Under the pieces are notes generated by a model, which saw only the letters and a program-made list of their open reading frames with translations, was not told the origin of the DNA and made no database searches. The translations under genes and the position numbers were made by a program. Of a stretch of 64,000 nt of DNA, positions 4,013 to 25,420 are shown one piece after another. Position 1 is the stretch's first letter. Every line of letters starts with the position of its first letter. Source of the DNA: an uncultured delta proteobacterium (GTDB lineage Bacteria; Desulfobacterota; Desulfovibrionia; Desulfovibrionales; Desulfovibrionaceae); assembly GCA_903835685.1 (NCBI GenBank), contig CAILNX010000043.1:186001-250000 (forward strand). Direction: 5' to 3'.

Positions 4013-4246
4013 GAGTCCGTCCAGCGCGGGCCTGGGTGCTGGTCCTGGAGTTCCGTCAGGACGATTTTCGAATGGACCGGACACGACAAATCTGTTGATA
4101 ATATTGTTACAGTTCCGTAACGAAGCAATAAATATCGTATATCGCGTGATATCGAATCGAAAAGCCTCACCCGACAAAAATATCACGTCCTTCGTCGGCC
4201 AGGGTACGGGCAAGCCGAAAGAACAGGGAAGAGAAGGAGATCACCG

Positions 4247-6034
4247 ATGCGGTTGCAGAATCTGAAGATAGGCACGAGACTGTTTTCCCTGGTCGTCATC
4301 GCCTCCATTTTCCTGGTGGGCATCGGCCTGTTCAGCATTGCCAGCGTGGCCCGGGTCGATGAAAGATTCACCTCCCAGCTCGCCAGGGACAGCGATATCA
4401 AGCGCAGCATCGACCTGGCCAGAAGCGCCCAGGTCGCTTTCAAGATCCAAGTCCAGGAGTGGAAGAACGTCCTGATTCGCGGCAATGATTCGGAAAAATA
4501 TAAGAAATATTTTGAGTCCTTCCACAAGGAACACGCCTCGGTGCAGGACAAGCTGCGGGAACTCCAGGCCCTCATGGCCCGGCTCGGAATGAACCCGGAA
4601 AACGCTCAGTTGGCGGCCAAGGCCCATGCAGAGCTCCTGGAAAAATATCAGGGGGCCTTGAAGCAGTTTGATCCGGGCGATGAAAACACCGGGAAGAAGG
4701 TGGACAAGCTGGTGACCGGCATCGATCGGGCTCCGACCGAGGCTGTGGACCGGGTGGTGGATGGCATCCTGGCGGCCACCGAGGACATGCACCACCAGGC
4801 CGAGGCCCAGGCCAGGGCCAGCTACCAGGAAACAAAGCAGGTGTTCCTGGCCGGGATCGCCCTGGCCCTGTTCGTGATGGTCGCGGTTTCCCTGGCCATC
4901 ATCAGGAGCATCACCGCCCCCCTGCGCCGCACCGTGCATTTCTCCGAAGCCGTGGCCCAGGGCCAGCTCGAAGCCACGCTCGACGTGGACGGCGACAGCG
5001 AGACCGGGCTCCTGGCCGATGGCCTCCGGCAGATGGTGGCGAACTTGAAGGCCAAGATCGCCGAGGCCGAGGCCAAGGGCGTCCAAGCCAGCCAGGAGAC
5101 CGAACGGGCCTCGGCCGCCACGCGCGAGGCCCGGGAGGCCCTGGAGAAGGCGCGGACCGCCCGGCAGGAAGGCATGCTCCATGCCGCGGACAAACTGCAA
5201 GGGGTGGTGGGCGCGGTCACCGACGCCTCCGCCGAACTGTCCTCCCAGATCGAGCAGTCCAGCCAGGGCGCGGACCAGCAGGCCGGACGCGTGGGCGAGA
5301 CGGCCACGGCCATGGAAGAGATGACCGCCACGGTGCTGGAAGTGGCCCGGAACGCTTCCGAGGCCTCCAGCACAGCGGGCCAGGCCAGGGTAAAGGCCCA
5401 GGAAGGGGCCAGCGTGGTCAGCCAGGTGGTCCAGGGCATTTCAGAGGTGCAGCGCCAGGCCCTGTCGCTGAAGACCGACATGGTCTCCCTGGGCGAACAG
5501 GCCGAGGGCATCGGCAAGATCATGGGCGTCATCTCGGACATCGCGGACCAGACCAACCTCCTGGCCCTGAACGCGGCCATCGAGGCCGCCCGGGCCGGGG
5601 ATGCGGGCCGGGGATTCGCCGTGGTGGCCGACGAGGTGCGCAAACTGGCCGAAAAGACCATGACCGCCACCAAGGAAGTGGACCAGTCCGTGCGCGGCAT
5701 CCAGCAGAGCGCGCAGAAGAACATGGAGAACGTGGACCAGGCCGTGGCCACCATCGACCAGGCCACCACCCTGGCCGACCAGTCCGGCCAGGCCCTGCGG
5801 GAAATCGTGGCCATGGTGGAGCTGACCACGGACCAGGTCCGCTCCATCGCCACGGCGGCCGAGGAGCAGTCCTCCACCAGCGAGGAGATCAACCGCTCCA
5901 TCGAGGACGTGAGCCGGATATCCTCGGAAACCTCGTCCGCCATGCGCGAGTCGGCCCAGGTGGTTTCCCGCCTGGCCGAGCAGGCCCGGTCCCTGCGCGA
6001 CCTGATCCAGGAGATGCAGGACTCCTGCGTCTAG
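4247..6034 (+). CDS. methyl-accepting chemotaxis protein
   Basis: A 595-residue transmembrane chemoreceptor. TM1 spans about residues 12-34. A mostly helical periplasmic domain (35-198) looks like a four-helix-bundle sensor. TM2 spans 199-221 and a HAMP domain 221-275. The long signalling hairpin carries the near-invariant tip ([20 protein letters not shown], then [20 protein letters not shown]). The ligand is unknown. The C-terminus lacks a CheR-tethering pentapeptide. AAGGAG precedes the ATG. The region upstream (about 4085-4200) is AT-rich and probably holds the promoter. Confidence 0.95.
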
Positions 6035-6674: not shown

Positions 6675-6926
6675 GGGGAATCCCGAGATCAGGGTGGGGT
6701 CAGGCCAGTTGGCCTGGCTTTCTGACATGGTAGCCCCATCCCCGGTGTCTGTCCACGGCCGGGAAGCGCCCGGACTTGCTGGCGTCGGCCCTTCTTCACC
6801 AAACTGTAACCGGCCTGCCATCATGGCAGAGGTTCCCGTGCGTAAAAGTATGACCCGGCAAGCATGACGAATTGCTGGCCTCGGCCCGATTTCCGAGGTC
6901 TGGGCCAGCCCCAAAGGAGCGTGTTC

Positions 6927-7454
6927 ATGAGTGCACGAGAAATCAAGCTGAGCAAGACCCTGCCCAAGGACGGACTGGCGGATTTCTTCGCGGAATTGTC
7001 CACTTGGCTGTCCGGCCAGGAGGCGGCCGAAGGCCTGCCCAAGCCAGGCGAAGTGGCCTCTCTCAAACTGCGGGTGGAGGACGCCGGGTCGAACTACACG
7101 GTCAAGGTCAAGATCAAGCGCACCACCGAGACCGAGGCGGCCCAGGCCGAGAGCGCCCCACCTCCGGTTCTAGGCTACAAGACCCTGAAGAAAAAGCTCC
7201 GGGCCAACATGAAGAGCCTGGCCTGGTACGTGTCCGAGAACCGCCTGCCCCCGGGACACGAGTTGGAGGGCTTCCTGAACCACTGTCTGGCCATGACCAA
7301 GTTTCCGGGTAAGGGTGAGGAGTACTACGCCCCCTTCCTGGCCACCCTGGAGCAGCTCAAGGCTGCTGTGGCCGCCCAGGATTTCGACCTCATCACCACC
7401 GCCTTGCAGCAGATCAACCGGGTGAAAAAGGAATGCCACGCCAAATACAAATAG
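6927..7454 (+). CDS. GAK system XXXCH protein
   Basis: A 175-residue protein ending INRVKKECHAKYK, the Cys-His signature that gives the XXXCH family its name. The N-terminal ~75 residues (KLSKTLPKDGLADFF, then LKLRVEDAGSNYTVKVKIKR) have the helix-then-paired-strand layout of the amphi-Trp proteins at 8642 and 13799, so it may be an amphi-Trp-like module joined to a helical tail. The strong site AAAGGAG precedes the ATG at 6927. A perfect 6-bp dyad (CCTCGG 6879-6884 with CCGAGG 6893-6898) lies in the leader. It opens the GAK cassette. No function is known; the lone C-terminal Cys-His pair could be a metal-binding or modification site. Confidence 0.85.
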   Translation: MSAREIKLSKTLPKDGLADFFAELSTWLSGQEAAEGLPKPGEVASLKLRVEDAGSNYTVKVKIKRTTETEAAQAESAPPPVLGYKTLKKKLRANMKSLAWYVSENRLPPGHELEGFLNHCLAMTKFPGKGEEYYAPFLATLEQLKAAVAAQDFDLITTALQQINRVKKECHAKYK

Positions 7455-7498
7455 CCCACCGGGCCTCTGATCCGCAGAAGCCCCTGGCTTGCGGCCGC

Positions 7499-8620
7499 AT
7501 GGCCCTTCAGGATTTCCCCCGGGAGCTGACCGCCGAGGACCAGGACCTGTTTTTTCAGGTCACGGCCACGGCCCTTGATCCCGAGCAGGTGGAGCGCATC
7601 CTGGCCCCGGCCCAGGTCCATCCGGAGACCCGGAGCGTCCTGGCCGTGCACTGGCACCCGGAATTCGTGCCCCTGGACCTGATCGCGAGGCGCATCGAGG
7701 CCACTTTTCCGAACAAGACCGATGAACTGATCATCCCCACCCAGCACAACGAGCTCATGAGCTACGGACCCTGGACCGGGGCCGAGGTGGACTGCTACGC
7801 CTCGGGCTTTGACCAGAAGGTCCAGCTCCTCATCCATTTCGAGAATTCCCGGGTGGCCGAGGCGGGCGTGCTCAAATCCATGCTGGCCCACACCTTCACC
7901 TACCGCTCCTCCCAGCTCCACGAGTTCCTGCGGGCCATCACCACCCCGGACAGCCTGGTCTTTGAGCGGGCCGTGCGCGAATGCGGGGCCGACGAGGAAC
8001 TCATCGGCTTTGTGCACACCGTGGCCAGCCGCATCGAGAGCCTTCTGGACCGGCATCAGGACGGTCTGCCCCGGGGCGCGATCAAGAACAAGCTGGTCCG
8101 CGACTTTCTCGACGGCCTGAGGCCCCGGGTGGGCGACGTGGCCATCAACCGCGCCCAGGCCCTGCTCAAGGCGGTCAAGGAAGGGGTCAAGACCGCCTTC
8201 TCCCTCAAGCATTTTTACCGGGCCACCGAGGTCATCGAGGAAGTCCGGCACTTACGCGGCGGGGTGGTCATCCCCCACCCCGAACAGTTCTGGCCCATCC
8301 TGCTGGGCGGATACGACGTGGACGGGGTGGAGGTCTGGAATCCCGAGTCCCAGCGCTACACCGATTTCCTCATCCGCATCATCAGCGAAAAGAACCGGGA
8401 GCGCCCCAGGTCCGAGCGCAGGCTCCTGGTGTTCATGGGCGACGACTGCCACATGGGGGAGAAGACCAAGCATCCCCAGGTCCAGAATCCGGCCAAGGCC
8501 TCCCGCCAGATCGGGGTCCAGCCCGGATGGACCAACTTGGGTATCCGCAAGATGCTGCTCAAGGCGGACATGGCCAAGGAAACCGTCATCGCCGAGTACA
8601 CCAACCGGCTCAATCCATAG
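7499..8620 (+). CDS. PHP-like metal-dependent hydrolase of GAK cassette
   Basis: The 373-residue protein keeps the main metal-binding motifs of the PHP phosphoesterase fold in order: HWHPE (HxH), IPTQHNEL, LLIHFE, IPHPEQFWP, VEVWNP and, near the C-terminus, GDDCHMGEK in place of the usual GSDxH. An inserted helical region (about residues 120-255) separates the first and later motifs. PHP enzymes hydrolyse phosphoesters, for example histidinol phosphate or nucleic-acid ends; the substrate here is unknown. The start is unclear: the ATG at 7499 lacks a good ribosome site, and an ATG at 7433 overlapping the XXXCH stop is possible. It lies inside the GAK gene row, so a joint role is likely. Confidence 0.72.
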   Translation: MALQDFPRELTAEDQDLFFQVTATALDPEQVERILAPAQVHPETRSVLAVHWHPEFVPLDLIARRIEATFPNKTDELIIPTQHNELMSYGPWTGAEVDCYASGFDQKVQLLIHFENSRVAEAGVLKSMLAHTFTYRSSQLHEFLRAITTPDSLVFERAVRECGADEELIGFVHTVASRIESLLDRHQDGLPRGAIKNKLVRDFLDGLRPRVGDVAINRAQALLKAVKEGVKTAFSLKHFYRATEVIEEVRHLRGGVVIPHPEQFWPILLGGYDVDGVEVWNPESQRYTDFLIRIISEKNRERPRSERRLLVFMGDDCHMGEKTKHPQVQNPAKASRQIGVQPGWTNLGIRKMLLKADMAKETVIAEYTNRLNP

Positions 8621-8641
8621 CCCCGCAAGGAGGCCTTCCAT

Positions 8642-8914
8642 ATGTCCGGCAACAAGCGTTTTGAATTCGAATCCTTCCAGGACCCGGCGACCCTGCGCGA
8701 GCAGCTGGCCTCCATCCTGGACGGCCTGGCCAAGGGCCAGGTCCGCCTGGCCACCGAGGACCAGGAAATCGTGCTCACCCCCGGCCCCCTGCTCAAGGTC
8801 TCGGTCAAGGCCAAGCGCAAGGAGGACGAAAGCCGTCTGTCCGTGAAGATCAGTTGGAAGGACGCCAAGCGCGACGAAGAAACAACCGGCAAGAGCATCA
8901 CCATCCGGTCCTGA
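8642..8914 (+). CDS. amphi-Trp domain protein 1
   Basis: A 90-residue protein with an N-terminal helix (DPATLREQLASILDGLAKGQ) followed by amphipathic strands LLKVSVKAKRKED and RLSVKISWK. The closing strand carries the conserved Trp of the amphi-Trp family. Translation starts from AAGGAGG. It is 3 bp upstream of the PhoU-phosphotransferase gene, so the two are tightly coupled. It has no catalytic signature and is small, basic and likely cytosolic, as expected of a binding partner, carrier or substrate for the enzymes around it (inference). Confidence 0.88.
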   Translation: MSGNKRFEFESFQDPATLREQLASILDGLAKGQVRLATEDQEIVLTPGPLLKVSVKAKRKEDESRLSVKISWKDAKRDEETTGKSITIRS

Positions 8915-8916
8915 CC

Positions 8917-10554
8917 ATGATTACCCTGGACAGCATCGAAGAGAACTTCCGCTTCCTGGCCCTGGAAGTGACCCATCAGGCCAAGGCCACGTCCACCTTC
9001 CTGGACGCGCCCAGCCATTCCCTGTTCGACAAGATCGTCTCCCGGGACGACTACATCGACAACTTGAAAAACGTCATCGAGAACAGTTGCTTCTCGAAAA
9101 TCCACAGCGACGCGGCCATCACCAAGCGGGGCATCGACCATATCCGCGCCCTGCACATCATCGCCGTGAACCTGGAACGCATCGCGGACTTCTGCGTGAA
9201 CATCGCCAAACAGATGGCCTATTTCAACGACCCGCACTTCCTCAAGCGCTTCGACCACCAGGCCATGCTCAACGAGATCATCACCGGGCTGGAGACGGTC
9301 CAGAACATGAGCGAGAAGCAGGACCTCTCGGCCGCCCTGGCCGTGTGCCGCTGCGAGCACACCCTGGACAGCCAGTACAAGGAGAGCTTCGACCGGATCA
9401 TGGCCATGCTGCGCACGGGCTTGCAGGTGGAGAACCTGCTCACCACCCTGTTCATCTTCCGCTATCTGGAGCGCATCGGCGACTCCCTGCTGAACATCGG
9501 CGAGGCCATGATCTTTTCCATCATCGGGGAGAAGATCAAGATCGAGCAGTTCCAGGCCCTGCAGCAGACCTTGAACAAGAGCGGCTTTTCCGGGTCCATC
9601 TCGGAAATCGATTTCCAGTCCATCTGGGGCACGCGCTCGGGCTGCCGCATCAGCCGGGTGGGAACCCACCTGGCCAAGGACCCGGCCCAGGGCAGCATCT
9701 TCAAGGAAGGCGCCCTGGCCAAGGTGCGCAAAGAGAAGGAGAACATCGAGAGCTGGGACATCATCGCCCCGGGCATCGGGCCGAAGATATTTAGCTACCA
9801 CGAGGAGGGCGACAAGGCCTCCATGCTCGTGGAGTTTTTGTCCGGCTGCACCCTGGAGGAGATGGTCCTGACCTCGGCCCATGACGACCTCATGCGTGTG
9901 CTGTCCCTTTTCGAACAGACCCTCATGGAGGTCTGGGAAGCCACGGAAATGACCGGCCCCGCTCCCACGGACTACATGGGCCAGCTCAGCTCCCGCCTGG
10001 ACGCCGTGCGCCAGGTGCACAAGAACTTCGAACGGCCCGTGCAGTTTTTAAACGATACCCGGGTGGCCTCCACCCGCGAACTGCTCAAGACCTGCGCTGA
10101 TATCGAACAGACCCTGCCCGCCCCGCGCACCATGTTCATCCACGGCGATTTCAACGTGAACAACATCGTGTACGACCACTCCAGGGAGCGCATCCATTTC
10201 ATCGATCTGTACCGCTCCCGCCGGGCCGACGTGGTCCAGGACATCTCCGTGTTCCTGGTGTCCAACTTCCGGCTGCCGGTCATGGAGCACAATCTGCGGG
10301 AGCGCATCGCCTCGGTGAGCCAGTCCTTCTTCCAGTTCGCTTGCGAATACGCCGCGTCCAAAGAGGACGCGACCTTCCAGGCCCGGCTCTGCCTGGCCCT
10401 GGCCCGCTCCTTCTTCACCTCCACCCGTTTCGAGCTGGCCCCCAATTTCGCCAAGGAGATGTTTTTGCGCGGCCATTACCTCATGGAAAAGATGGCCACC
10501 CACACCGGCGCCTGGGCTGCCTTCAGCATCCCGGAACACATCTTCTCGGCCTAA
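8917..10554 (+). CDS. PhoU domain-aminoglycoside phosphotransferase-like fusion
   Basis: A 545-residue two-part protein. Residues 1-~225 form PhoU-like three-helix bundles (HQAKATSTFLDAPSHSLFDK, RGIDHIRALHIIAVNLERIA, LFIFRYLERIGDSLLNIGEA). Residues ~240-545 resemble the aminoglycoside/choline kinase fold. The Brenner motif HGDFNVNNIVYD carries the catalytic Asp and Asn, and the metal-binding IDLYRSRRADVVQDISVFL follows. The enzyme should phosphorylate a small molecule or protein using ATP or GTP. PhoU modules usually bind metal or report phosphate status. I know of no characterised protein with this fusion. It lies between an amphi-Trp gene and the ATP-grasp gene. Confidence 0.82.
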   Translation: MITLDSIEENFRFLALEVTHQAKATSTFLDAPSHSLFDKIVSRDDYIDNLKNVIENSCFSKIHSDAAITKRGIDHIRALHIIAVNLERIADFCVNIAKQMAYFNDPHFLKRFDHQAMLNEIITGLETVQNMSEKQDLSAALAVCRCEHTLDSQYKESFDRIMAMLRTGLQVENLLTTLFIFRYLERIGDSLLNIGEAMIFSIIGEKIKIEQFQALQQTLNKSGFSGSISEIDFQSIWGTRSGCRISRVGTHLAKDPAQGSIFKEGALAKVRKEKENIESWDIIAPGIGPKIFSYHEEGDKASMLVEFLSGCTLEEMVLTSAHDDLMRVLSLFEQTLMEVWEATEMTGPAPTDYMGQLSSRLDAVRQVHKNFERPVQFLNDTRVASTRELLKTCADIEQTLPAPRTMFIHGDFNVNNIVYDHSRERIHFIDLYRSRRADVVQDISVFLVSNFRLPVMEHNLRERIASVSQSFFQFACEYAASKEDATFQARLCLALARSFFTSTRFELAPNFAKEMFLRGHYLMEKMATHTGAWAAFSIPEHIFSA

Positions 10555-10580
10555 AAAGCAGCCAACCAAAGGACAGGCAC

Positions 10581-11468
10581 ATGCCCCGCATCGGCGTCAT
10601 CGGCATCAGCGACGGCTGGTCCTCGCAAAGTCTGGCCCAGGCCGCGAGCCAGGCCACCGGCCACCCCCCCCTGCTCATCGAGATGAACCGGGTGCGCCTG
10701 GACCTGCCCTCGGGCCGGGTCCTGTTCGGGGACCTAAACCTGGCGGACCTGGACGCGCTCATCGTGAAGAAGATCGGAGCCCAGTACTCCCCGGACCTCC
10801 TGGACCGCCTGGAAATCCTGCGCCTCCTGTCCGCCCGGGGCCTGCCCGTGTTCTCCGAGCCCAGCCGCATCATGGGCATGCTGGACCGCCTGGCCTGCAC
10901 CGTGACCTTGCAACTGGCTGGCATCCCCATGCCCAAGACCACCCTGACCGAGGACCCGGACCAGGCCGCCGCCGCCCTGGCGGAGTACGGCCGGGCCGTG
11001 TTCAAGCCACTCTACAGCACCAAGGCCCGGGGCATGATCCTGCTGGAGCACGGCCCGGACTCCCGGGAGCGCATCGCGGCCTACGCCCGGGAATTTCCCA
11101 TGATGTACATCCAGAAGGCCGTGACCATCGAGAACGACCGGGACCTGGGCCTGGTCTTTCTGGGCGGGGAGTACCTGACCACCTACGCCCGGTGCAAGAC
11201 CAACGATTCCTGGAACACCACCACGGCCTCGGGCGGACGCTACGCGCCCTTTGACCCGCCCCGGGAGATCATCGACCTGGCGGACAAGGCCCAGGCCGCC
11301 TTTGGCCTGGATTTCACCTGCGTGGACGTGGCCCTGACCAGCGAGGGGCCGCTGGTTTTCGAGGTCTCGGCCTTTGGCGGATTTCGGGGGGTGGAGAAGG
11401 CCCGGGGCTTTGATCCGGCCCCCCTGCTGGTCGAGCACGTCTTAAACCGCATCGGAGGCCGCCCATGA
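10581..11468 (+). CDS. GAK system ATP-grasp enzyme
   Basis: A 295-residue RimK/glutathione-synthetase-like ATP-grasp ligase. Visible features are the N-terminal pre-ATP-grasp strand (PRIGVIGISDGWSS), the central AVFKPLYSTKARGMILL lysine/glycine loop, YIQKAV, and the metal-binding end FTCVDVALTSEGPLVFEVSA. Such enzymes couple ATP to carboxylate-amine (or thiol) ligation through an acyl phosphate, often adding amino acids to a protein C-terminus or a peptide. The partner here is unknown. Its stop overlaps the start of the HprK-related kinase gene by 4 bp (ATGA). Confidence 0.87.
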   Translation: MPRIGVIGISDGWSSQSLAQAASQATGHPPLLIEMNRVRLDLPSGRVLFGDLNLADLDALIVKKIGAQYSPDLLDRLEILRLLSARGLPVFSEPSRIMGMLDRLACTVTLQLAGIPMPKTTLTEDPDQAAAALAEYGRAVFKPLYSTKARGMILLEHGPDSRERIAAYAREFPMMYIQKAVTIENDRDLGLVFLGGEYLTTYARCKTNDSWNTTTASGGRYAPFDPPREIIDLADKAQAAFGLDFTCVDVALTSEGPLVFEVSAFGGFRGVEKARGFDPAPLLVEHVLNRIGGRP

Positions 11469-12565
11469 CCAGCGCCCTGCACGACCTGGTCCGCCATGTG
11501 CGGACCAAGTACCCGACCAAATACATCTTTTTTCTGCACCTGGGCGACTGCGTCATCGAGGTGCGCAGCAACAGCCCGGAGCTGAACACCGAGCTGACCT
11601 CCTATTTCGGCTCCTTTGCCCAGGCTCAGGGAAAGGCGGACCTGCTGGTCACCGTGCACGAGGCCCCGGCCCCGGATCTGCCCTTTGCCTTTGAGTCCAA
11701 GACCCCGGACCCGGGCAAGAGCAAGATCAAGGAGGAATGGGCGGACATCCCGGGCGGCCGGGTGGTGCGCAAGCGACTGACCGGCATGGTCATGGTCTTT
11801 GGCCAGGGCGAGCACCTGGTGGTGGGTCCCTGTCTGGAAAATCCCAACCAGGTCGTGAACTTCATCAACAACCGTTACATCGAGCGCAAGCTGGACCAGG
11901 GCGCCATCCTGGGCCATGCGGCGGCCGTGGCCTTGGGTCCGCGCGGACTGGCCATGGCCGGGTTCTCGGGCATGGGCAAGTCCACCCTGGCCCTGCACGT
12001 CATGAGCCTGGGCGCGGACTTCGTGAGCAACGACCGGGTGCTGGTGAACGGGAGCGGCCACGGCCCGGCCATGCTCTACGGCGTGGCCAAGCACCCGCGC
12101 ATCAATCCGGGCACGGCCCTGAACAACCCGGACCTCTCCTCGGTGGTGGCCGAGACGGACAAGGCCCGCTTCCTGGCCCTGCCTCCGGCCGAACTCTGGG
12201 CCCTGGAGCACAAATACGACGCCATCATCGAAGACTGCTTCGGCCCCGGACGCTTCCGCCTGGCCGTGCCCTTCTCCGGGCTGGCCCTGCTCAACTGGAA
12301 GAGGGATGGCGGGGCCTGCCGCGTGGCCCGGGTGAATCCGGCCGAGCGGGGAGACCTGCTCCCGGCCATCATGAAATCCCCGGGCCTGTTCTATCCCGAG
12401 GCCGAGGTCCGGGAGGAGGAGGAACTTCCGAAGGAGGCCTGGCTTCAGGCCTTGCGCGACCGGGTGGTCCTGGAGTTTTCCGGGGGCGTGAATTTTGCGC
12501 TGGCCGCCCGGGTGTGCCTGGACTTTCTGCGCACCGGGGAGACGCCCCGGGACAGCGCGGGGTGA
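11465..12565 (+). CDS. HprK-related kinase B (GAK system)
   Basis: A 366-residue protein with a P-loop GFSGMGKST (about residues 166-174) and the HprK-like follow-up LGADFVSNDRVLV. HPr kinase and related enzymes phosphorylate a protein Ser, or in some lineages a small molecule. The N-terminal 150 residues (VRTKYPTKYIFFLHLGDCVI...) are specific to the subfamily. No HPr gene is in the window, so the substrate is probably another cassette product. It has a 4-bp overlap with the ATP-grasp gene upstream and a 3-bp gap to the CofD-like gene downstream. Confidence 0.87.
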   Translation: MTSALHDLVRHVRTKYPTKYIFFLHLGDCVIEVRSNSPELNTELTSYFGSFAQAQGKADLLVTVHEAPAPDLPFAFESKTPDPGKSKIKEEWADIPGGRVVRKRLTGMVMVFGQGEHLVVGPCLENPNQVVNFINNRYIERKLDQGAILGHAAAVALGPRGLAMAGFSGMGKSTLALHVMSLGADFVSNDRVLVNGSGHGPAMLYGVAKHPRINPGTALNNPDLSSVVAETDKARFLALPPAELWALEHKYDAIIEDCFGPGRFRLAVPFSGLALLNWKRDGGACRVARVNPAERGDLLPAIMKSPGLFYPEAEVREEEELPKEAWLQALRDRVVLEFSGGVNFALAARVCLDFLRTGETPRDSAG

Positions 12566-12568
12566 GCC

Positions 12569-13774
12569 GTGGTCCAGGTCCGGCTGGTCTCCCACCGGGT
12601 TCTTCCGGACCCGGTTCTGGCGGCGCGCTCGCGCAAAAGCCCGGAGCTTGGGCCGCGCATCCTGTTTTTCAGCGGAGGCACGGCCCTGCGCGGCCTGTCC
12701 CGGACCCTGACCGCGTATACCCACAACTCCATCCATCTCATCACCCCCTTTGATTCCGGGGGCAGCTCGGCCAAGCTGCGCCAGGCCTTCGGCATGCCCG
12801 CCGTGGGCGACATCCGCAACCGGCTCATGTCCCTGGCCGATCAAAGCCTGCACGGCAATCCCGAGATTTTCGACCTGTTCATCCACCGCCTGCCCAAGGA
12901 CCAGGAAATCCCCAAGCTGCGCGAGGATTTCACCCGCATGGCCCACGGCAGCCATCCCCTGGTGGCGGCCATTCCCGACCCCATGCGCAAGATTATCCGG
13001 GCGCATTTCTACGATTTCCTGCAAGCCGCGCCCGAGGACTTCGATCTGCGCGGGGCCAGCCTGGGCAACCTGGTCCTGGCCGGGGGATACCTGGCCAACC
13101 GCCGCCACCTGGACCCCACCATCTACCTCTTCTCCATGCTGGTGCGCGTGCTCGGCGTGGTCCGGCCCGTGGTCAACGAGGACCTGCACCTGGCCGTGGA
13201 GCTGCAGAACGGCCGCACCCTGGTGGGCCAGCACCTGATCACCGGCAAGGAGGTCCCGGGACTGTCCGAGCCCATCCGGCGCATCTGGCTGGCCGCAAGC
13301 CTGACCGACCCCACCCCCCGGGAGACCGCCATCCGGCCCAAGACCGCCTCCCTCATCCACCGGGCCGACCTGATCTGCTATCCCATGGGCAGCTTCTATT
13401 CCAGCCTGGCCGCCTGCCTCCTGCCCCAAGGGGTGGGCCGGGAAATCGCCCGCACCGCCTGCCCCAAGGTGTTCATCCCCAACACCGGGCAGGACCCCGA
13501 ACTCCTGGGCCACGATCTGGACTGCCAGATCGAGGTCCTTCTGGAGCTTCTGGCCCGGGACTGCGGCGCCGGGGTCGAGGCCGAGCAACTCCTGAATTTC
13601 GTGCTCGTGGACCAGGCCCAGAACCAGGACCAGGACCGTCGGCCCAGCCCCTCCTGCCGTGAACGCTGGGCCAGGCGCGGCATCCAGATCGTGGAATGCC
13701 CCCTGGCCTCGCCCCAAAGCGCCCCGCACCTGGACCCGGACCTTCTGGCCCCGGTCCTGGTGTCCTTATCCTGA
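12569..13774 (+). CDS. GAK system CofD-like protein
   Basis: A 401-residue member of the CofD/YvcK fold. It shows the nucleotide-binding start ILFFSGGTALRGLSRTL, the HLITPFDSGGSSAKLR loop, LGNLVLAGGYL, and the C-terminal Asn/Asp-rich HRADLICYPMGSFYSS. CofD transfers a lactyl- or phosphoenolpyruvyl-phosphate group to the deazaflavin Fo, and YvcK binds UDP-sugars; neither role is shown here. No F420 genes are nearby. The start is GTG, 3 bp after the HprK-like stop. Confidence 0.87.
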   Translation: MVQVRLVSHRVLPDPVLAARSRKSPELGPRILFFSGGTALRGLSRTLTAYTHNSIHLITPFDSGGSSAKLRQAFGMPAVGDIRNRLMSLADQSLHGNPEIFDLFIHRLPKDQEIPKLREDFTRMAHGSHPLVAAIPDPMRKIIRAHFYDFLQAAPEDFDLRGASLGNLVLAGGYLANRRHLDPTIYLFSMLVRVLGVVRPVVNEDLHLAVELQNGRTLVGQHLITGKEVPGLSEPIRRIWLAASLTDPTPRETAIRPKTASLIHRADLICYPMGSFYSSLAACLLPQGVGREIARTACPKVFIPNTGQDPELLGHDLDCQIEVLLELLARDCGAGVEAEQLLNFVLVDQAQNQDQDRRPSPSCRERWARRGIQIVECPLASPQSAPHLDPDLLAPVLVSLS

Positions 13775-13798
13775 ACCCCAACCCCCAAGGAGATGCGC

Positions 13799-14080
13799 AT
13801 GGACAAGGACAAGCTCGCCTATCGCCAGATCATGACCGCCGCCGAAGCCGTGACCTACCTGGAGGGCCTGATCCAGGGCTTCAAGGCCGGTTCCGTGCTG
13901 GTTTCCCAGGGTGAGGACAGCCTGGCCCTGGCCCCGGGCCAGGACATCGAGGTGGAAGTGGAGGCCAGGCGCAAAAAGGACAAGGAACGTTTCAGCCTGG
14001 AGTTCTCCTGGCGCGTGGCCCCGGAAATCGACGCCGCGGCCAAGTTGAACGTGGGCGCGCCCGAGGCCGACAAGGCTTAA
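13799..14080 (+). CDS. amphi-Trp domain protein 2
   Basis: A 93-residue paralogue of the protein at 8642. It has an N-terminal helix (MTAAEAVTYLEGLIQGFKAG), then strands DIEVEVEARRKKD and RFSLEFSWR with the family Trp, and a short acidic tail. AAGGAG at 13787-13792 is 6 bp before the ATG at 13799 and immediately adjacent to the ATG at 13793, so 13799 is chosen. The two amphi-Trp genes bracket the kinase, ATP-grasp and CofD-like genes. No terminator with a T run follows; only an imperfect G/C hairpin is visible near 14110-14135. Confidence 0.87.
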   Translation: MDKDKLAYRQIMTAAEAVTYLEGLIQGFKAGSVLVSQGEDSLALAPGQDIEVEVEARRKKDKERFSLEFSWRVAPEIDAAAKLNVGAPEADKA

Positions 14081-14293
14081 AGACCCACAGCCCCCTGACA
14101 GGAGGGGGGACCCGGTCCTCCCTCCTGCCCTTCATCCCGACAAGCAATCCTTCCGCACTCGCCTGTCACTCATTTGTCATGGGCCTGCCATGCAGCCCGG
14201 CCCGTTCCGGCCTATATTCTCTAGACATTGGCCGGACGGCTCCGGCGGATCGCCGCCCCCCCGCCCGGCAACCCTTCAGCGCGGAGGCCAGCC

Positions 14294-16147
14294 ATGGAAA
14301 GCCGTCAGCATTTCGGAGATCTTCTGCCCCAGCCCAGGCCCGTGAGCGAAGCCGGGATCATCAAGGGCCTCTACTCCTCCCTCAGGCACAAGACCCTGAA
14401 CACGGTCATGTGCATCCCGAAAATCGACGGGCTCTACGCCGACCTGCCCCAGTCCGGAGACTCCCTGGCCTTCACCGAACTGGCCTTGAGCGGGCTGAAC
14501 GTCTCCCTGCGCTTGAGCCAGGAGGATTTCCAGCGCATCCCGACCACTGGGCCGGTCATGGTGGTGGCCAACCATCCCTTCGGGGCCGTGGAAGGGCTCC
14601 TTCTGGCCAATGTCCTGCGCAAGCGCCGTCCCGACGCCAAGATCCTGGCCAATTCCCTGCTGAGTTCCGTGCCGGAACTGGCGGACATGTTCATCCTGGT
14701 GGACCCCTTCGGCGGACAGGGGGCGGCGGCGCGCAACCTGGGACCTCTGCGCGAGAGCCTGAAATGGCTGAAAAGCGGCGGCCTGCTCGGGGTCTTTCCG
14801 GCCGGGGAGGTCTCCCACTACCAGGTGGGTCGGGGCATATCCGACCCCCAGTGGAGCCCGCTGGTGGCCCGCATCGCGCGCATGACCGCCTGCCCGGTCC
14901 TGCCCATGTATTTCCACGGGGCCAACGGCCCGCTCTTCCAGCTCATGGGCCTCATCCACCCCCGGCTGCGCACCCTCATGCTCCCCCGGGAGATGCTGAA
15001 CAAGGGCGGCCAGACCATCGAGCTGCGCATCGGCGCGCCCATTCCGGCGGCCAAGATCGCCGAGTACCCGAGCGACGAAGATCTGATGACTTTCTTAAGG
15101 CTGCGCACCTACAACCTGAAGCACGCGGCCCTGCGCCGGGAGAGGACGGATCGGGCTCAGGTCCAGGCTCTGGACCAAACCCCTGGACAGGCCCAGGCCC
15201 AGAACCAGGCCCCGATCATCGCGCCCGTCGACCCCGAGGATCTGGCCCGGGAGATGGCCAGCCTGCCCGAGGACCGGCTGGTGTCCAAGTCCGGGACCCT
15301 GCACACCTACTGGGCCAGGGCCGGGGAGATTCCGGACACCCTGCGCGAGATCGGCCGGTTGCGGGAGATATCCTTCCGGGAGGTGGGCGAGGGCACGGGC
15401 GAGGCCCTGGACCTGGACCCCTTTGACGACTACTACGTTCACCTGGTGCTTTGGAACGCCGAGACCCGCGAGGTGGTCGGGGCCTACCGTCTGGGCCTGA
15501 CCGACGAAATCCGGCCCCGGTTCGGCAAAAAGGGCATGTATACCTGCACCCTGTTCAAGTACAAAAAGGCCTTTCTCTCGGCCATCGACAATTCCATCGA
15601 GCTGGGCCGCTCCTTTGTCCGGCCCGAGTACCAGCGCCACTCCCAGGCCCTGCCCCTGCTCTGGAAGGGCCTGGCCCGGTTCGTGACCCGGCACCCCAAA
15701 TACCGCTTTCTCTTCGGCCCGGTGAGCATCACCGACCGCTACGAGACCGTGTCCCGCCAGTACATGCTGGAGTTTTTGCGGCGCAACAACCTGCACGGGG
15801 AGTTGTCCCACCTGGTCCGGGCCAAGACCCCGCCCCGGTTCAAGCCCCTGAAGAAGAAGATGGACTCCGGCAGCAGCCTGGACGTGGTGAAAACCATCGA
15901 GGACGTGAACGCCCTGGTGGCGGACATTGAAATGGGCGGCCGGGGGCTCCCGGTCCTGCTCAAGCAGTATTTGAAATTCGGGGGCGAGCTCCTGGGCTTC
16001 AACATAGACCAGGGCTTCGGCAACTGCCTGGACGGGCTCATCCTGGTGGACCTGCTGCGCACGGATCGCAAGATCCTCTCCCGGTACATGGGCAAGGAAG
16101 AGATGGCCGCCTACCTGACCTACCACGGCCGGGACGCCGAGATGTAG
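14294..16147 (+). CDS. PlsC-like acyltransferase fused to OlsB/GNAT-like acyltransferase
   Basis: 617 residues. The N-terminal half (about 75-300) is a lysophospholipid acyltransferase-type domain. It has NHPFG in place of the HxxxxD box start, a GVFPAGEVS block, and PVLPMYFHG. A Gln/Ala/Pro-rich linker (about 305-325) leads to an OlsB/hemolysin-type GNAT domain (about 335-590: LREISFREVG, DDYYVHLVLWN, VVGAYRL, ELGRSFVRPEYQ, LFGPVSITDRY). The same order is found in bifunctional ornithine-lipid synthases of the OlsF type, so an aminolipid made from an amino acid and two acyl chains is plausible. GGAGG precedes the ATG. It is co-directional with the GAK cassette but separated by 213 bp, so it may be a separate unit. 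Confidence 0.83.
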   Translation: MESRQHFGDLLPQPRPVSEAGIIKGLYSSLRHKTLNTVMCIPKIDGLYADLPQSGDSLAFTELALSGLNVSLRLSQEDFQRIPTTGPVMVVANHPFGAVEGLLLANVLRKRRPDAKILANSLLSSVPELADMFILVDPFGGQGAAARNLGPLRESLKWLKSGGLLGVFPAGEVSHYQVGRGISDPQWSPLVARIARMTACPVLPMYFHGANGPLFQLMGLIHPRLRTLMLPREMLNKGGQTIELRIGAPIPAAKIAEYPSDEDLMTFLRLRTYNLKHAALRRERTDRAQVQALDQTPGQAQAQNQAPIIAPVDPEDLAREMASLPEDRLVSKSGTLHTYWARAGEIPDTLREIGRLREISFREVGEGTGEALDLDPFDDYYVHLVLWNAETREVVGAYRLGLTDEIRPRFGKKGMYTCTLFKYKKAFLSAIDNSIELGRSFVRPEYQRHSQALPLLWKGLARFVTRHPKYRFLFGPVSITDRYETVSRQYMLEFLRRNNLHGELSHLVRAKTPPRFKPLKKKMDSGSSLDVVKTIEDVNALVADIEMGGRGLPVLLKQYLKFGGELLGFNIDQGFGNCLDGLILVDLLRTDRKILSRYMGKEEMAAYLTYHGRDAEM

Positions 16148-16380: not shown

Positions 16381-17067
16381 TTAATGGGCCTGCAACAGAT
16401 ACCCGAAGCCGCGCTCGGTCTTCAAGTACCCCCCGCAGGGACCGAGCTTGCGGCGCAGGCGGCGGATCATGGTGTCCACGGCCCGGGTCGAGACCGCCTT
16501 GGGGTGGCCGCGCCACACCCGGGTCAGATGCCCCCGGGAGAGGACCCGGCCCTCGTGCCGGGCCAGTTCGCCCAGGAGCTGGAACTCGGCGGCCGTGAGC
16601 CGAGGATGTTCACCCATGGACTCCACCTGGAATCCGTCGAAATCAATGCTGAGTTCTCCCCCCCGCCAGACCGCCCCGGGCGCGGCCGGGACCTGGTCCA
16701 TGCGCTTGAGGATATTGCGGATGCGCAGGCAGAGCTCCCGCAGGCTGAAGGGCTTGGGCACGCAGTCGTCGGCCCCCTGCTCAAAGGCCGCCACCCGGTT
16801 GGATTCGCTGTCGTTGGCGGTCAGGATCACCACTGGTATCCGGGCCGTGCGGGGGTCCTTGCGCATGAGCGAGCAGACCTCCAGCCCCCCCAGGCCGGGC
16901 AGGAGCAGATCCAGGATCACCAGGTCCGGTCCCCAGCTCCTGGCCTGGGCCAGTCCGATCTGGCCGTCCTCGGCCCCCTGGGCCGCGAACCCCAGGGACC
17001 TTAAGGCGAACTCCAGCATGATCCGGGTGTCGGAATCATCCTCAATGACCAGAATGCGTTTGCTCAC
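16381..17067 (-). CDS. OmpR/PhoB-family response regulator
   Basis: 228 residues. The receiver domain starts KRILVIEDD and has the phospho-acceptor Asp in LVILDLLLPG, the switch Thr in VILTAND, and Lys in CVPKPF. It is joined to a winged-helix DNA-binding domain (LTAAEFQLLGELARHEGRV, VDTMIRRLRRKLG, TERGFGYLL). The GTG at 17067 is chosen because the receiver begins right there and AAGGGGG lies 8-9 bp upstream; an ATG at 17091 is the alternative. No histidine kinase is adjacent, so the partner is elsewhere. Confidence 0.93.
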   Translation of the reverse strand: MSKRILVIEDDSDTRIMLEFALRSLGFAAQGAEDGQIGLAQARSWGPDLVILDLLLPGLGGLEVCSLMRKDPRTARIPVVILTANDSESNRVAAFEQGADDCVPKPFSLRELCLRIRNILKRMDQVPAAPGAVWRGGELSIDFDGFQVESMGEHPRLTAAEFQLLGELARHEGRVLSRGHLTRVWRGHPKAVSTRAVDTMIRRLRRKLGPCGGYLKTERGFGYLLQAH

Positions 17068-17208
17068 CAGGCTGCCCCCTTGTCGCGTCATGGCGCTGTC
17101 CACTCAGCACCCTGTACCCGGGCCATCTTTCCGCCGGGAGACGAGGGGGTCACGGTTCTGCAACAAATGGCTCAGGGGAGACAGGCGGCCTCTGGACTGA
17201 CCACGGGG

Positions 17209-23014: not shown

Positions 23015-25420
23015 ATGAAAATCGACCTGCACGTGCACTCCAAGTGCTCCACCCGGCCGTCCCAGTGGATTCTCCAGAAGCTCGGATGCCCGGAAAGCTT
23101 CACCCCGCCGGCCTTGATCCACAAGCTGGCCCGGGAGCGGGGCATGGACCTGGTGACCATCGCGGACCACAACACCCTTGACGGGGTCCTGGAGATCGCC
23201 CACCTGGACGATGTCTTCATCAGCCTGGAGATCACCTCCTATTTTCCCGAGGACCGCTGCAAGGTCCATGTGCTGGCCTTAAACATCACCGAGGCCCAGT
23301 TCCAGGACATCCAGAAGATCCGGGAGAACGTCTACGAACTGGTCCCGTTCCTGCGCGAGCAGGCCATCCCCCACATCTGCGCCCACCCCCTGTACGGGGT
23401 GAACGGCAAGCTCACCGTGGACCATGTGGAGAAGCTCCTGCTCCTGTTCAAGAACCTGGAGATGAACGGCTCGCGCTGCACCGAGGCCAACCAGCTCCTG
23501 CGCCGCCTGGTCGAGTCCCTGACCCCGGAGGGCATGGCCCGCCTGGCGGACAAGCACGGCATTCAGCCGGGCTTTCCCGAACCCTGGCGCAAGACGCTGA
23601 CCGGCGGGTCCGACGACCACGGGGGCCTGAATATCGCCCGCAAGCACACCGTGGTCCCGGAGGCCCGCACCCTGGACGAATTCCTGCTCGGCCTGGCGCA
23701 AGGGCGGGCCTATCCGGCCGGTGAGGACGCCCGGCCCGAGACCATGGCCCACAACTTGAGCTCCATCGCCTACCAGTTCTACAAGGGCAAGTTCAACCTT
23801 GAGAAGGTGGTGGGCAAGGACGTGTGCATCAATTTCGTGGACCGCTTCCTGTCCCCGGACCCGGTCCCAGAGAGCGGGATGATGGACCGGATCAAGACCT
23901 TCATCGGCGCGCGGCGCTACCGCAACACCAAGTCCTCCTCCCTCACGGGACTGCGGGACATCATCCAGCACGAGGCGGCCCGGATGATCATGGACGACCC
24001 CACCCTGCTCGGGGTGTCCCAGGGCGTGGGCCTGCCCCGGCACAGCAAGGGCCTGGAATGGTACCGATTCGTCAACGGGGTGTCCAACCAGGTGCTCAAA
24101 ATCTTCGCCGACCGCCTCTTTACGGTCCTGTCCGGGGGCAATCTCCTGGACATCTTCCACGTGCTGGGCTCGGCCGGGGCCTTGTACACCATGCTGGCCC
24201 CCCATTTCGTGTCCTACACCATCTTCGGCGAGGACCGGCAGTTCGCCCAGACCGCGGCCGACCGCTTCCTGCCCGGCCAGCCCGGGGTCCAGCCCAAAGA
24301 CGGACGCATCGCCCACTGCACGGACACCTATTTCGAGCTGAACGGGGTGGCCAAATCCTTGCGCGACAGCGTGGCCCGGGCCGAGCGCCTGGGCCTGGAC
24401 ATGCGCGTCTTGACCTGCGGCCCGGACCCCCGGGACTGCGGCCCGGCCGTGGTGAATTTCACCCCCATCGGAGTGTACAGCCTGCCCGAATACCCCCAGC
24501 AGTCCATCTCCTACCCGCCCATCCTGGACGTGATCCGGGCCGTGCACGAGCAGGGCTTCACCCACCTGCACGCCGAGACCCCCGGTCCCATGGGCCTGGC
24601 GGCCATCCTGGCGGCCAAGGTCCTGCACCTGCCCGTGCACGCCTCCTACCACACCCAGATCCCCCAGTACGTGCACCAGCTCACCGGGGACGACAGCATG
24701 GAGGAGATGTCCTGGCGGTACATGCGCTGGTTCTACAACCAGATGGACAAGATTTTCGCCCCCTCCCGGTCCACGGCCCAGGAGCTCATCGACCACGGCA
24801 TCGCGGCCCACAAGGTCTCGGTCTATCCCCGGGGCGTGGACACCGAGGTCTTCCATCCCCGAAAACGCAACGGATTCCTGCACCGCTACGGGTTCGAGAC
24901 CGGGCTGACCCTGCTCTACGTGGGGCGGCTGTCCAAGGAGAAGAACCTGGACCTTCTGGCCGACTCCTTCCTGAGCCTGGCCGGGGAGCGCGACGACCTG
25001 AACCTGCTCATCGTGGGCGACGGCCCCCAGGCCGAGCCCCTGCGCCAGAAGCTCAAACACCCCCGCTGCCGCTTCGCCGGGGTGCTCGGGGGCGAGGACC
25101 TGGCCGCCTGCTACGCCTCCAGCGACCTCTTCGTGTTCCCCAGCCTGACCGACACCTTTGGCAACGTGGTCCTGGAGGCCCAGGCTTCGGGCCTGCCCAT
25201 CATCGTCAGCGACCAGGGCGGCCCGCCCGAGAACGTGCTGCACGACGAGACCGGCCTGGTGCTGAGCGCCATGACCGTGGAGGGCCTGGCCCAGGGCATC
25301 CGCGTCCTGGCCGACGACCCGGCCCGCCGGGAGCGGATGGGGGTCAAGGCCAGGTCCGAGATGGAGTCCCGGGGCTTCGACCAGGCCCTGCGCCGGACCT
25401 GGGAACTGTATCTGGCCTGA
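23015..25420 (+). CDS. PHP domain-GT4 glycosyltransferase fusion
   Basis: 801 residues. Residues 1-~250 are a PHP metal-dependent phosphoesterase domain with DLHVHSKCS, IADHNT, ICAHPLYG and GGSDDHGG, so the metal ligands are present. A middle helical part (~250-430) is not recognised. Residues ~430-800 form a GT-B glycosyltransferase of family 4: ELNGVAKSLRD donor start, HLHAETPGPMG, SRSTAQELIDHG, LLYVGRLSKEKNLD, and the nucleotide-sugar site VFPSLTDTFGNVVLEAQASG. It probably builds an envelope glycolipid or polysaccharide while also cleaving a phosphoester. Nucleotide-sugar and acceptor are unknown. AGGAGAGAG precedes the ATG. Confidence 0.9.
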   Translation: MKIDLHVHSKCSTRPSQWILQKLGCPESFTPPALIHKLARERGMDLVTIADHNTLDGVLEIAHLDDVFISLEITSYFPEDRCKVHVLALNITEAQFQDIQKIRENVYELVPFLREQAIPHICAHPLYGVNGKLTVDHVEKLLLLFKNLEMNGSRCTEANQLLRRLVESLTPEGMARLADKHGIQPGFPEPWRKTLTGGSDDHGGLNIARKHTVVPEARTLDEFLLGLAQGRAYPAGEDARPETMAHNLSSIAYQFYKGKFNLEKVVGKDVCINFVDRFLSPDPVPESGMMDRIKTFIGARRYRNTKSSSLTGLRDIIQHEAARMIMDDPTLLGVSQGVGLPRHSKGLEWYRFVNGVSNQVLKIFADRLFTVLSGGNLLDIFHVLGSAGALYTMLAPHFVSYTIFGEDRQFAQTAADRFLPGQPGVQPKDGRIAHCTDTYFELNGVAKSLRDSVARAERLGLDMRVLTCGPDPRDCGPAVVNFTPIGVYSLPEYPQQSISYPPILDVIRAVHEQGFTHLHAETPGPMGLAAILAAKVLHLPVHASYHTQIPQYVHQLTGDDSMEEMSWRYMRWFYNQMDKIFAPSRSTAQELIDHGIAAHKVSVYPRGVDTEVFHPRKRNGFLHRYGFETGLTLLYVGRLSKEKNLDLLADSFLSLAGERDDLNLLIVGDGPQAEPLRQKLKHPRCRFAGVLGGEDLAACYASSDLFVFPSLTDTFGNVVLEAQASGLPIIVSDQGGPPENVLHDETGLVLSAMTVEGLAQGIRVLADDPARRERMGVKARSEMESRGFDQALRRTWELYLA

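Follow-up and report, generated by a model that had tools for sequence, protein, structure and literature searches.

The 64,000-nucleotide stretch analyzed here, referred to below as the window (positions 186,001 to 250,000 of contig CAILNX010000043.1 from an uncultured delta proteobacterium of the family Desulfovibrionaceae), carries at positions 6927 to 14080 of its forward strand eight co-directional genes joined by overlaps or short gaps (Table 1). They constitute a complete GAK system, a standard example of a system that has a name but no assigned function. This is what the first-pass annotation of the window had proposed, and the profile searches that it called for bear it out: all five NCBIfam GAK models (TIGR04354 to TIGR04358) are exceeded by six of the genes, far above the curated cut-offs, and the scores, which had been named as the point on which the proposal could fail, are high. 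The individual gene assignments also proved right, and a fold match now supports that of the PHP-like protein. No GAK model exists for the PhoU-APH and PHP-like genes, yet they are conserved in the cassettes as much as the other parts and can be added to the system as conserved components. That the system lacks an assigned function agrees with the literature searched, in which we found no use of the names GAK system, amphi-Trp, and HprK-related kinase or of the TIGR numbers. The main functional clue, absent from that annotation, is a phosphorus-limitation context that includes an OlsF-like gene just past the downstream edge of the cassette; it places GAK in a phosphorus setting, and we consider it probable that the system belongs to phosphorus limitation.

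Table 1. Features of the GAK cassette and its surroundings in the window
Feature	Position	Strand	Basis
Pho-box-like repeat upstream of chemotaxis receptor	4105-4121		TGTTAC-N5-CGTAAC; strong, p=0.001
Methyl-accepting chemotaxis protein	4247-6034		Immediately 5' of the GAK region
Candidate Pho-box-like element upstream of cassette	6794-6821	+	CTTCAC-N5-TGTAAC + CTGCCAT at 11-bp spacing
XXXCH protein	6927-7454	+	TIGR04358, 78 bits (cut-off 40)
PHP-like protein, 373 aa	7499-8620	+	AlphaFold2 model and Foldseek
Amphi-Trp1	8642-8914	+	TIGR04354, 67 bits (cut-off 31)
PhoU-APH fusion	8917-10554	+	PF01895 and PF01636 in one protein, both over Pfam gathering threshold
GAK ATP-grasp	10581-11468	+	TIGR04356, 422 bits (cut-off 300)
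HprK-related kinase B (HprK-B)	11465-12565	+	TIGR04355, 501 bits (cut-off 200)
GAK CofD/YvcK-like protein	12569-13774	+	TIGR04357, 528 bits (cut-off 340)
Amphi-Trp2	13793-14080	+	TIGR04354, 66 bits (cut-off 31)
Pho-box-like direct repeat before OlsF-like gene	14164-14190	+	TGTCAC-N5-TGTCAT-N5-TGCCA
OlsF-like bifunctional ornithine lipid synthase	14342-16147	+	NF052615, 412 bits (below cut-off 620); contextual neighbor, not GAK core
PhoB-like OmpR-family response regulator	16381-17103	-	TIGR02154 (PhoB), 171 bits (below cut-off 296)
PHP domain + glycosyltransferase family 4 (GT4) protein	23015-25420	+	Commonest non-core GAK neighbor, 21/124 loci

AAAGGAG stands a few bases 5' of the XXXCH start codon, the PhoU-APH gene has an alternative, overlapping start at 8911, and the ATP-grasp and HprK-B genes meet in an ATGA overlap. 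With X for XXXCH, P for PHP-like, a for amphi-Trp, U for PhoU-APH, G for ATP-grasp, K for HprK-B, and D for CofD-like, the order X-P-a-U-G-K-D-a, or subsets of it, is seen again in most of 80 GTDB loci, a conservation far beyond chance; the neighborhood census suggested in the first-pass annotation thus finds the homologues kept together in further genomes as one conserved cassette. HprK-B scores over its cut-off in 68 of 150 sampled genomes (about 45%) of the window's order, and outside that order GAK is scattered among other Desulfobacterota, Planctomycetes, and Proteobacteria. Alpha- and gammaproteobacterial cassettes have a histidine phosphatase and a metallophosphoesterase instead of the PHP-like and XXXCH proteins, and one variant of this type also has a NUDIX protein. 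Near one gammaproteobacterial cassette, a gene for a Ppx/GppA exopolyphosphatase (PF02541; L105:1-411) lies at a distance of about 1 kb.

Several cassettes are split. Two genomes of the window's family (G213 and G277) carry G-K...D and X-P-a-U-K at separate sites, P-a-U occurs in a third genome (G219) in which no GAK ATP-grasp or HprK-B was detected, and seven genomes of one genus (L210 and L214 to L219) have a pstB-phoU-hprK_B-cofD block whose genes lie a few bases apart. Separable blocks thus make up the cassette, and the X-P-a-U, G-K, and K-D splits suggest a "carrier + kinase/phosphatase" half and a "ligase/sensor" half. By eye, peroxiredoxin-, phosphotransacetylase-, and acetate kinase-like genes stand between G-K and D in the former two genomes (L127 and L128), and an acetate kinase-like gene stands near P-a-U at L148. 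Some Desulfovibrionaceae (L082 to L111) have a second GAK copy that lacks CofD and lies between shikimate kinase-like and aroC genes, in a conserved position unlike that of the phosphorus-linked copies.

The phosphorus link emerged from a census of the neighbors of 124 GAK loci (after deduplication at 85%), run at stricter thresholds and with control transporter seeds; some first-pass Pst labels had proved to be molybdate and glycine-betaine permeases and were removed. Pst or PhoU genes adjoin 17 of the 124 loci, OlsF 10, and any phosphorus-acquisition gene 23, against one or two for each control transporter (ModB, OpuAB, OppC, and KtrB, 2 each; LivH, ZnuB, and UgpA, 1 each), with PstC and ModB being similar in copy number within GAK genomes. 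The arrangements differ: pstSCA or pstSCAB-phoU lies upstream of GAK in five loci (L069, L074, L080, L081, and L093), pstB-phoU directly upstream in a member of the window's family (L190), and phnM-phnC-phnD-phnE directly upstream in another locus (L189); a PiT transporter precedes GAK in L071 and, together with PhoU_div, neighbors it in L193; pst/phoU genes are near GAK in L129 and L132 and pst genes in L182 and L179; and L122 has an alkaline phosphatase, a PhnW-like aminotransferase, and OlsF nearby. Part of this material (L122, L129, L132, L179, L182, L189, L190, L193, and the seven-genome block) comes from further loci fetched after the first census to test the phosphorus link.

Ornithine lipid synthesis supplies the phosphorus-free lipid side of this linkage. 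In the window, both OlsF domains are present and the equivalog cut-off is not reached, hence the label OlsF-like; the start of the gene is uncertain (14276 or 14342). In the first census, the window and eight other Desulfovibrionaceae loci had OlsF flanking GAK. Some 50 GAK genomes carry OlsF, usually in a single copy, and in 7 of these (G000, G254, G071, G297, G370, G339, and G410, representing four families) the gene is no more than about 11 kb from a GAK gene, in differing orientations. In Desulfovibrio alaskensis, an OlsF homologue is needed to form ornithine lipids and contributes to growth when phosphate is low, a condition under which Pst and PhoR matter as well, and one sulfate reducer swaps out over 90% of its phospholipids under phosphate limitation (PMC5193443). 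The G20 phosphate paper makes no mention of ATP-grasp, phosphotransferase, or HPr.

Some further neighbors have a phosphorus or arsenic flavor. At seven loci (L045, L047, L048, L049, L059, L079, and L093), a gene resembling ArsC and low-molecular-weight phosphatases (TIGR02691, about 125 bits; below the cut-off of 174) adjoins GAK, often divergently and sharing an 11-bp repeat with it; arsenate is an analogue of phosphate. Two of these loci (L048:16853-20364 and L049) have a phnC/phnD/phnE-like transporter near GAK and OlsF, together with a D-2-hydroxyacid dehydrogenase that by eye resembles phosphite dehydrogenase, which might point to phosphite use.

Promoter regions provide a second line of evidence. 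The Escherichia coli Pho-box consensus occurs upstream of GAK at chance level (4/74). A TGTnAC direct repeat with an 11-bp period, a spacing that is a hallmark of PhoB boxes, is present at 19 of 101 GAK operon starts and before 17 of 52 phosphorus genes, against 18 of 689 other genes (Fisher p = 5.6e-9 and 3e-12, respectively), and at none of 115 internal GAK starts; periods other than 11 show no comparable excess. A position weight matrix (PWM) trained only on phosphorus genes likewise shifts GAK starts away from other genes (p = 4e-12). These patterns show a period-specific, PhoB-box-like repeat across the GAK family. Within the window, the element before the OlsF-like gene is strong, matching 11 of 12 triple-repeat positions (PWM empirical p below 0.002), and that upstream of the cassette reaches an empirical p of 0.025 against other upstream regions, which is moderate and not proof.

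On the basis of the linkage to phosphate, phosphonate, and phosphorus-free lipid genes, the pstB-phoU-hprK_B-cofD block, and the 11-bp repeats, it appears likely that GAK works in the phosphorus-limitation response, in many hosts under PhoB/PhoR control. Several observations weigh against this reading. The linked loci are phylogenetically related, so that by our judgement the independent pst linkages number roughly eight; a phosphorus-acquisition neighbor is within reach in only the 23 loci counted above, and most loci, including the plasmid copies of Rhodobacteraceae, show neither such a neighbor nor a strong repeat, which marks only 19% of GAK starts. The pst operon of the window genome sits on another contig, and the element upstream of its own cassette is only moderate. 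Reading the motif as the genuine PhoB site of these bacteria is an inference, and the repeat was noticed in the output of the earlier consensus scan and hence was not fully prespecified; the safeguards, namely, the period control and the PWM from separate genes, limit this post hoc choice without removing it. We found no expression or fitness data on GAK genes. The link could be incidental, with GAK having an unrelated role, for example in redox or cofactor metabolism, and having come to lie in Pho-regulated islands through shared horizontal transfer. Its patchy distribution and plasmid copies, the presence of other neighbors such as chemotaxis receptors, cyclic di-GMP proteins, and the aroC synteny, and the heme protein-like fold of XXXCH would all fit such a history. 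We nevertheless regard it as unlikely, given that the linkage recurs in several families with differing gene order and orientation, that the pstB-phoU-hprK-cofD block has gaps of only a few bases, and that the upstream repeats match the linkage.

The three small cassette proteins had been described as beta-rich and all carry the amphi-Trp domain, TIGR04354 matching XXXCH N termini with up to 38 bits (cut-off 31). For XXXCH, that description is incomplete: in its AlphaFold2 model (predicted local distance difference test score [pLDDT], 91.7), the C-terminal half matches cytochrome c' (Foldseek probability 1.00; root mean square deviation about 3 Å), and the protein is thus predicted to consist of an N-terminal amphi-Trp domain and a C-terminal cytochrome c'-like four-helix bundle. 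Its invariant residues, in an alignment from which one bad row was taken out, are K88, K89, M123, C170, and H171. The protein ends in K-x-x-C-H, so that of the CXXCH heme attachment motif of class II cytochromes c only Cys170-His171 is invariant and the first Cys is absent, and by eye it has no obvious signal peptide. The PHP-like protein has no match in Pfam or NCBIfam and no PDB profile match. Its model (pLDDT, 92.5) retrieves RNase AM (9etk; E = 1.8e-5) and the PHP phosphoesterase BAD_1165 (3e0f/3o0f), and its invariant H51-W-H53, H83, H113, H260, and D315/H318 include HxH, H, H, and DxxH at positions that fit the PHP superfamily. Both its modeled fold and its His/Asp metal motifs thus identify it as PHP-superfamily metallo-phosphoesterase-like.

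Among the enzymes, PhoU-APH has an invariant HGDxNxxN motif and downstream Asp residues. The ATP-grasp protein is RimK/MptN-like over its full length (E = 1e-22 to RimK structures), with E259-V260-S261, invariant in all aligned members, replacing the ExN metal motif of RimK-type glutamate ligases; it scores 100 bits with the rimK_fam model (cut-off, 143), and its best non-GAK model is MptN (140 bits). The CofD-like protein matches PF01933 (121 bits) and YvcK-type structures (E = 1e-34), and the nucleotidyl-type transfer step suggested in the first-pass annotation rests only on this family resemblance. HprK-B retains the P-loop and the catalytic His (H151) of HPr kinases and has an invariant N189-D190, in which Asn189 replaces the first Asp of their DD pair; it scores only 21 bits with the NCBIfam hpr-ser model (cut-off, 240).

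In another reading, within the same phosphorus role, the product of GAK would be a small phosphorylated signal or cofactor for which amphi-Trp proteins are receptors or carriers, with no protein modification. We regard this as plausible, if short of an even chance, and as the main competitor of the relay proposed below; inositol pyrophosphate signaling and the glutamylated tails of F420 and tetrahydromethanopterin (H4MPT) would be functional parallels. MptN is a cofactor glutamate ligase, APH kinases act on small molecules, and a sister ATP-grasp (153 bits; L133) lies in an operon of what by eye are fwd/mch/ftr tetrahydromethanopterin one-carbon-like genes; further, the histidine phosphatase, metallophosphoesterase, and, once, NUDIX protein of the variant cassettes belong to the enzyme classes of inositol pyrophosphate turnover. 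Conversely, the ATP-grasp is RimK/LysX-like, no inositol phosphate kinase is found among the structure matches, and the cassette has no obvious enzyme for a carbon skeleton or for nucleotide activation (CofC-like).

The strongest residue-level clue to protein modification lies in amphi-Trp1, where 99% of GAK orthologues have Ser or Thr at position 17 (W72 is found in 100%); the residue in the window is Thr17 (codon 8690 to 8692). Standalone amphi-Trp relatives mostly have Asp/Glu at this position, and no HprK-B over the cut-off is present in those of their genomes that were searched. Because such an exchange of Ser/Thr for Asp/Glu is typical of phosphosites, Ser/Thr17 is a candidate, if a tentative one, for the phospho-acceptor of HprK-B. 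Two points tell against it: position 17 is near the start of a helix and may be an N-terminal cap that favors S/T/D/E structurally, and, lacking the first Asp of the pair, HprK-B is not assured to have Ser/Thr kinase activity. Amphi-Trp genes outside GAK are common, and the domain is therefore not a GAK marker; their neighborhoods have no consistent partner gene. A RimK-type acceptor tail on the amphi-Trp proteins was considered and rejected, as their C termini are not conserved. One amphi-Trp2 (L076:13192-14118) has a long His/Cys-rich tail suggestive of metal binding, the other amphi-Trp2 tails being rich in Lys/Ala/Pro.

A broader version of protein modification, close to the scheme of the first-pass annotation, would have the enzymes act on the amphi-Trp/XXXCH proteins by phosphorylation, ligation, and nucleotidyl-type transfer with no specific tie to phosphorus. 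The grouping of three amphi-Trp-domain proteins with four ATP- or phosphate-handling enzymes in one operon, the ability of RimK relatives to ligate glutamate to a protein, and the Ser/Thr17 pattern are in its favor, but it leaves unexplained why phosphorus genes and 11-bp repeats are specifically enriched over control transporters and genes, and the amphi-Trp C termini do not resemble an acceptor tail; we judge it improbable. As the mechanism, we put forward a phosphorus-sensing modification relay, a possibility of which we are far from certain. In such a relay, HprK-B would phosphorylate Ser/Thr17 of amphi-Trp1 at low phosphate; the forward and reverse reactions of HPr kinase/phosphorylase depend on ATP and inorganic phosphate. 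The PhoU half of PhoU-APH would be coupled to the state of Pst, and its kinase half, with the ATP-grasp ligase, might produce a small molecule or tag, phosphorylated or aminoacylated, for the amphi-Trp/XXXCH proteins to hold. The PHP phosphoesterase, or in alpha- and gammaproteobacteria the histidine phosphatase and metallophosphoesterase, would reverse the phosphorylation, and the CofD/YvcK-like protein could be a ligand-binding or transfer subunit. Still more speculative, and in our estimate doubtful, is that GAK is a new phosphorus-sensing and signaling system in which a PhoU-coupled small-molecule kinase, an HPr kinase-like phosphate sensor, an ATP-grasp enzyme, and dedicated phosphatases would assemble, on amphi-Trp carriers, a phosphorylated mark or messenger that is reversible.

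The window holds additional genes of related interest. A Pho-box-like site (p = 0.016) is found upstream of the PhoB-like regulator gene. The nearest NCBIfam lipid glycosyltransferase to the PHP+GT4 protein is GlcN-PG synthase (135 bits, below the cut-off), and the fusion could be a glycolipid synthase used under phosphate limitation. Chemotaxis receptors such as the one 5' of the cassette are near GAK in 19 loci (cluster c8), which might relate to phosphate taxis.

The phosphorus link makes the function of a functionally blank system directly testable. If it is correct, the Pho regulon of sulfate reducers gains the eight genes of an enzymatic system, a PhoU-kinase fusion among them, and a first role can be given to the amphi-Trp, XXXCH, HprK-B, and CofD-GAK families. 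Should the signaling version hold, GAK would be the functional counterpart in bacteria of the control of phosphate homeostasis by inositol pyrophosphates in eukaryotes, and a second tier below PhoBR.

The NCBIfam definition of GAK assigns no function; none of its models hits the PHP-like protein, and PhoU-APH is not covered by a GAK model. XXXCH is like cytochrome c' in its four-helix bundle and C-terminal CH and differs in having KxxCH for CXXCH and the amphi-Trp fusion. With RNase AM (YciV) and BAD_1165, the PHP-like protein has in common a predicted fold and the positions of the PHP-type His/Asp motifs, whereas sequence similarity to them is undetectable in Pfam, NCBIfam, and PDB searches and the TM-score is about 0.4. 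The P-loop, the preceding His, and the second Asp of the DD pair of HPr kinase/phosphorylase (HprK/P) align with HprK-B, in which an invariant Asn takes the place of the first Asp and the N-terminal region differs; the cassette encodes no HPr. The RimK/LysX/MptN amino acid ligases resemble the GAK ATP-grasp over the full length, the latter having E-V-S for ExN. A PF01933 domain and YvcK-type structure matches link the CofD-like protein to CofD/YvcK (GlmR), whereas it is about 70 to 80 residues longer than the YvcK-type structures and belongs to a GAK subfamily of its own. Membership of GAK in the Pho regulon is not reported in any text that we found; with that regulon as seen in sulfate reducers (PstSCAB-PhoU, PhoBR, phn, and OlsF), the GAK loci nevertheless have both neighborhoods and 11-bp repeats in common.

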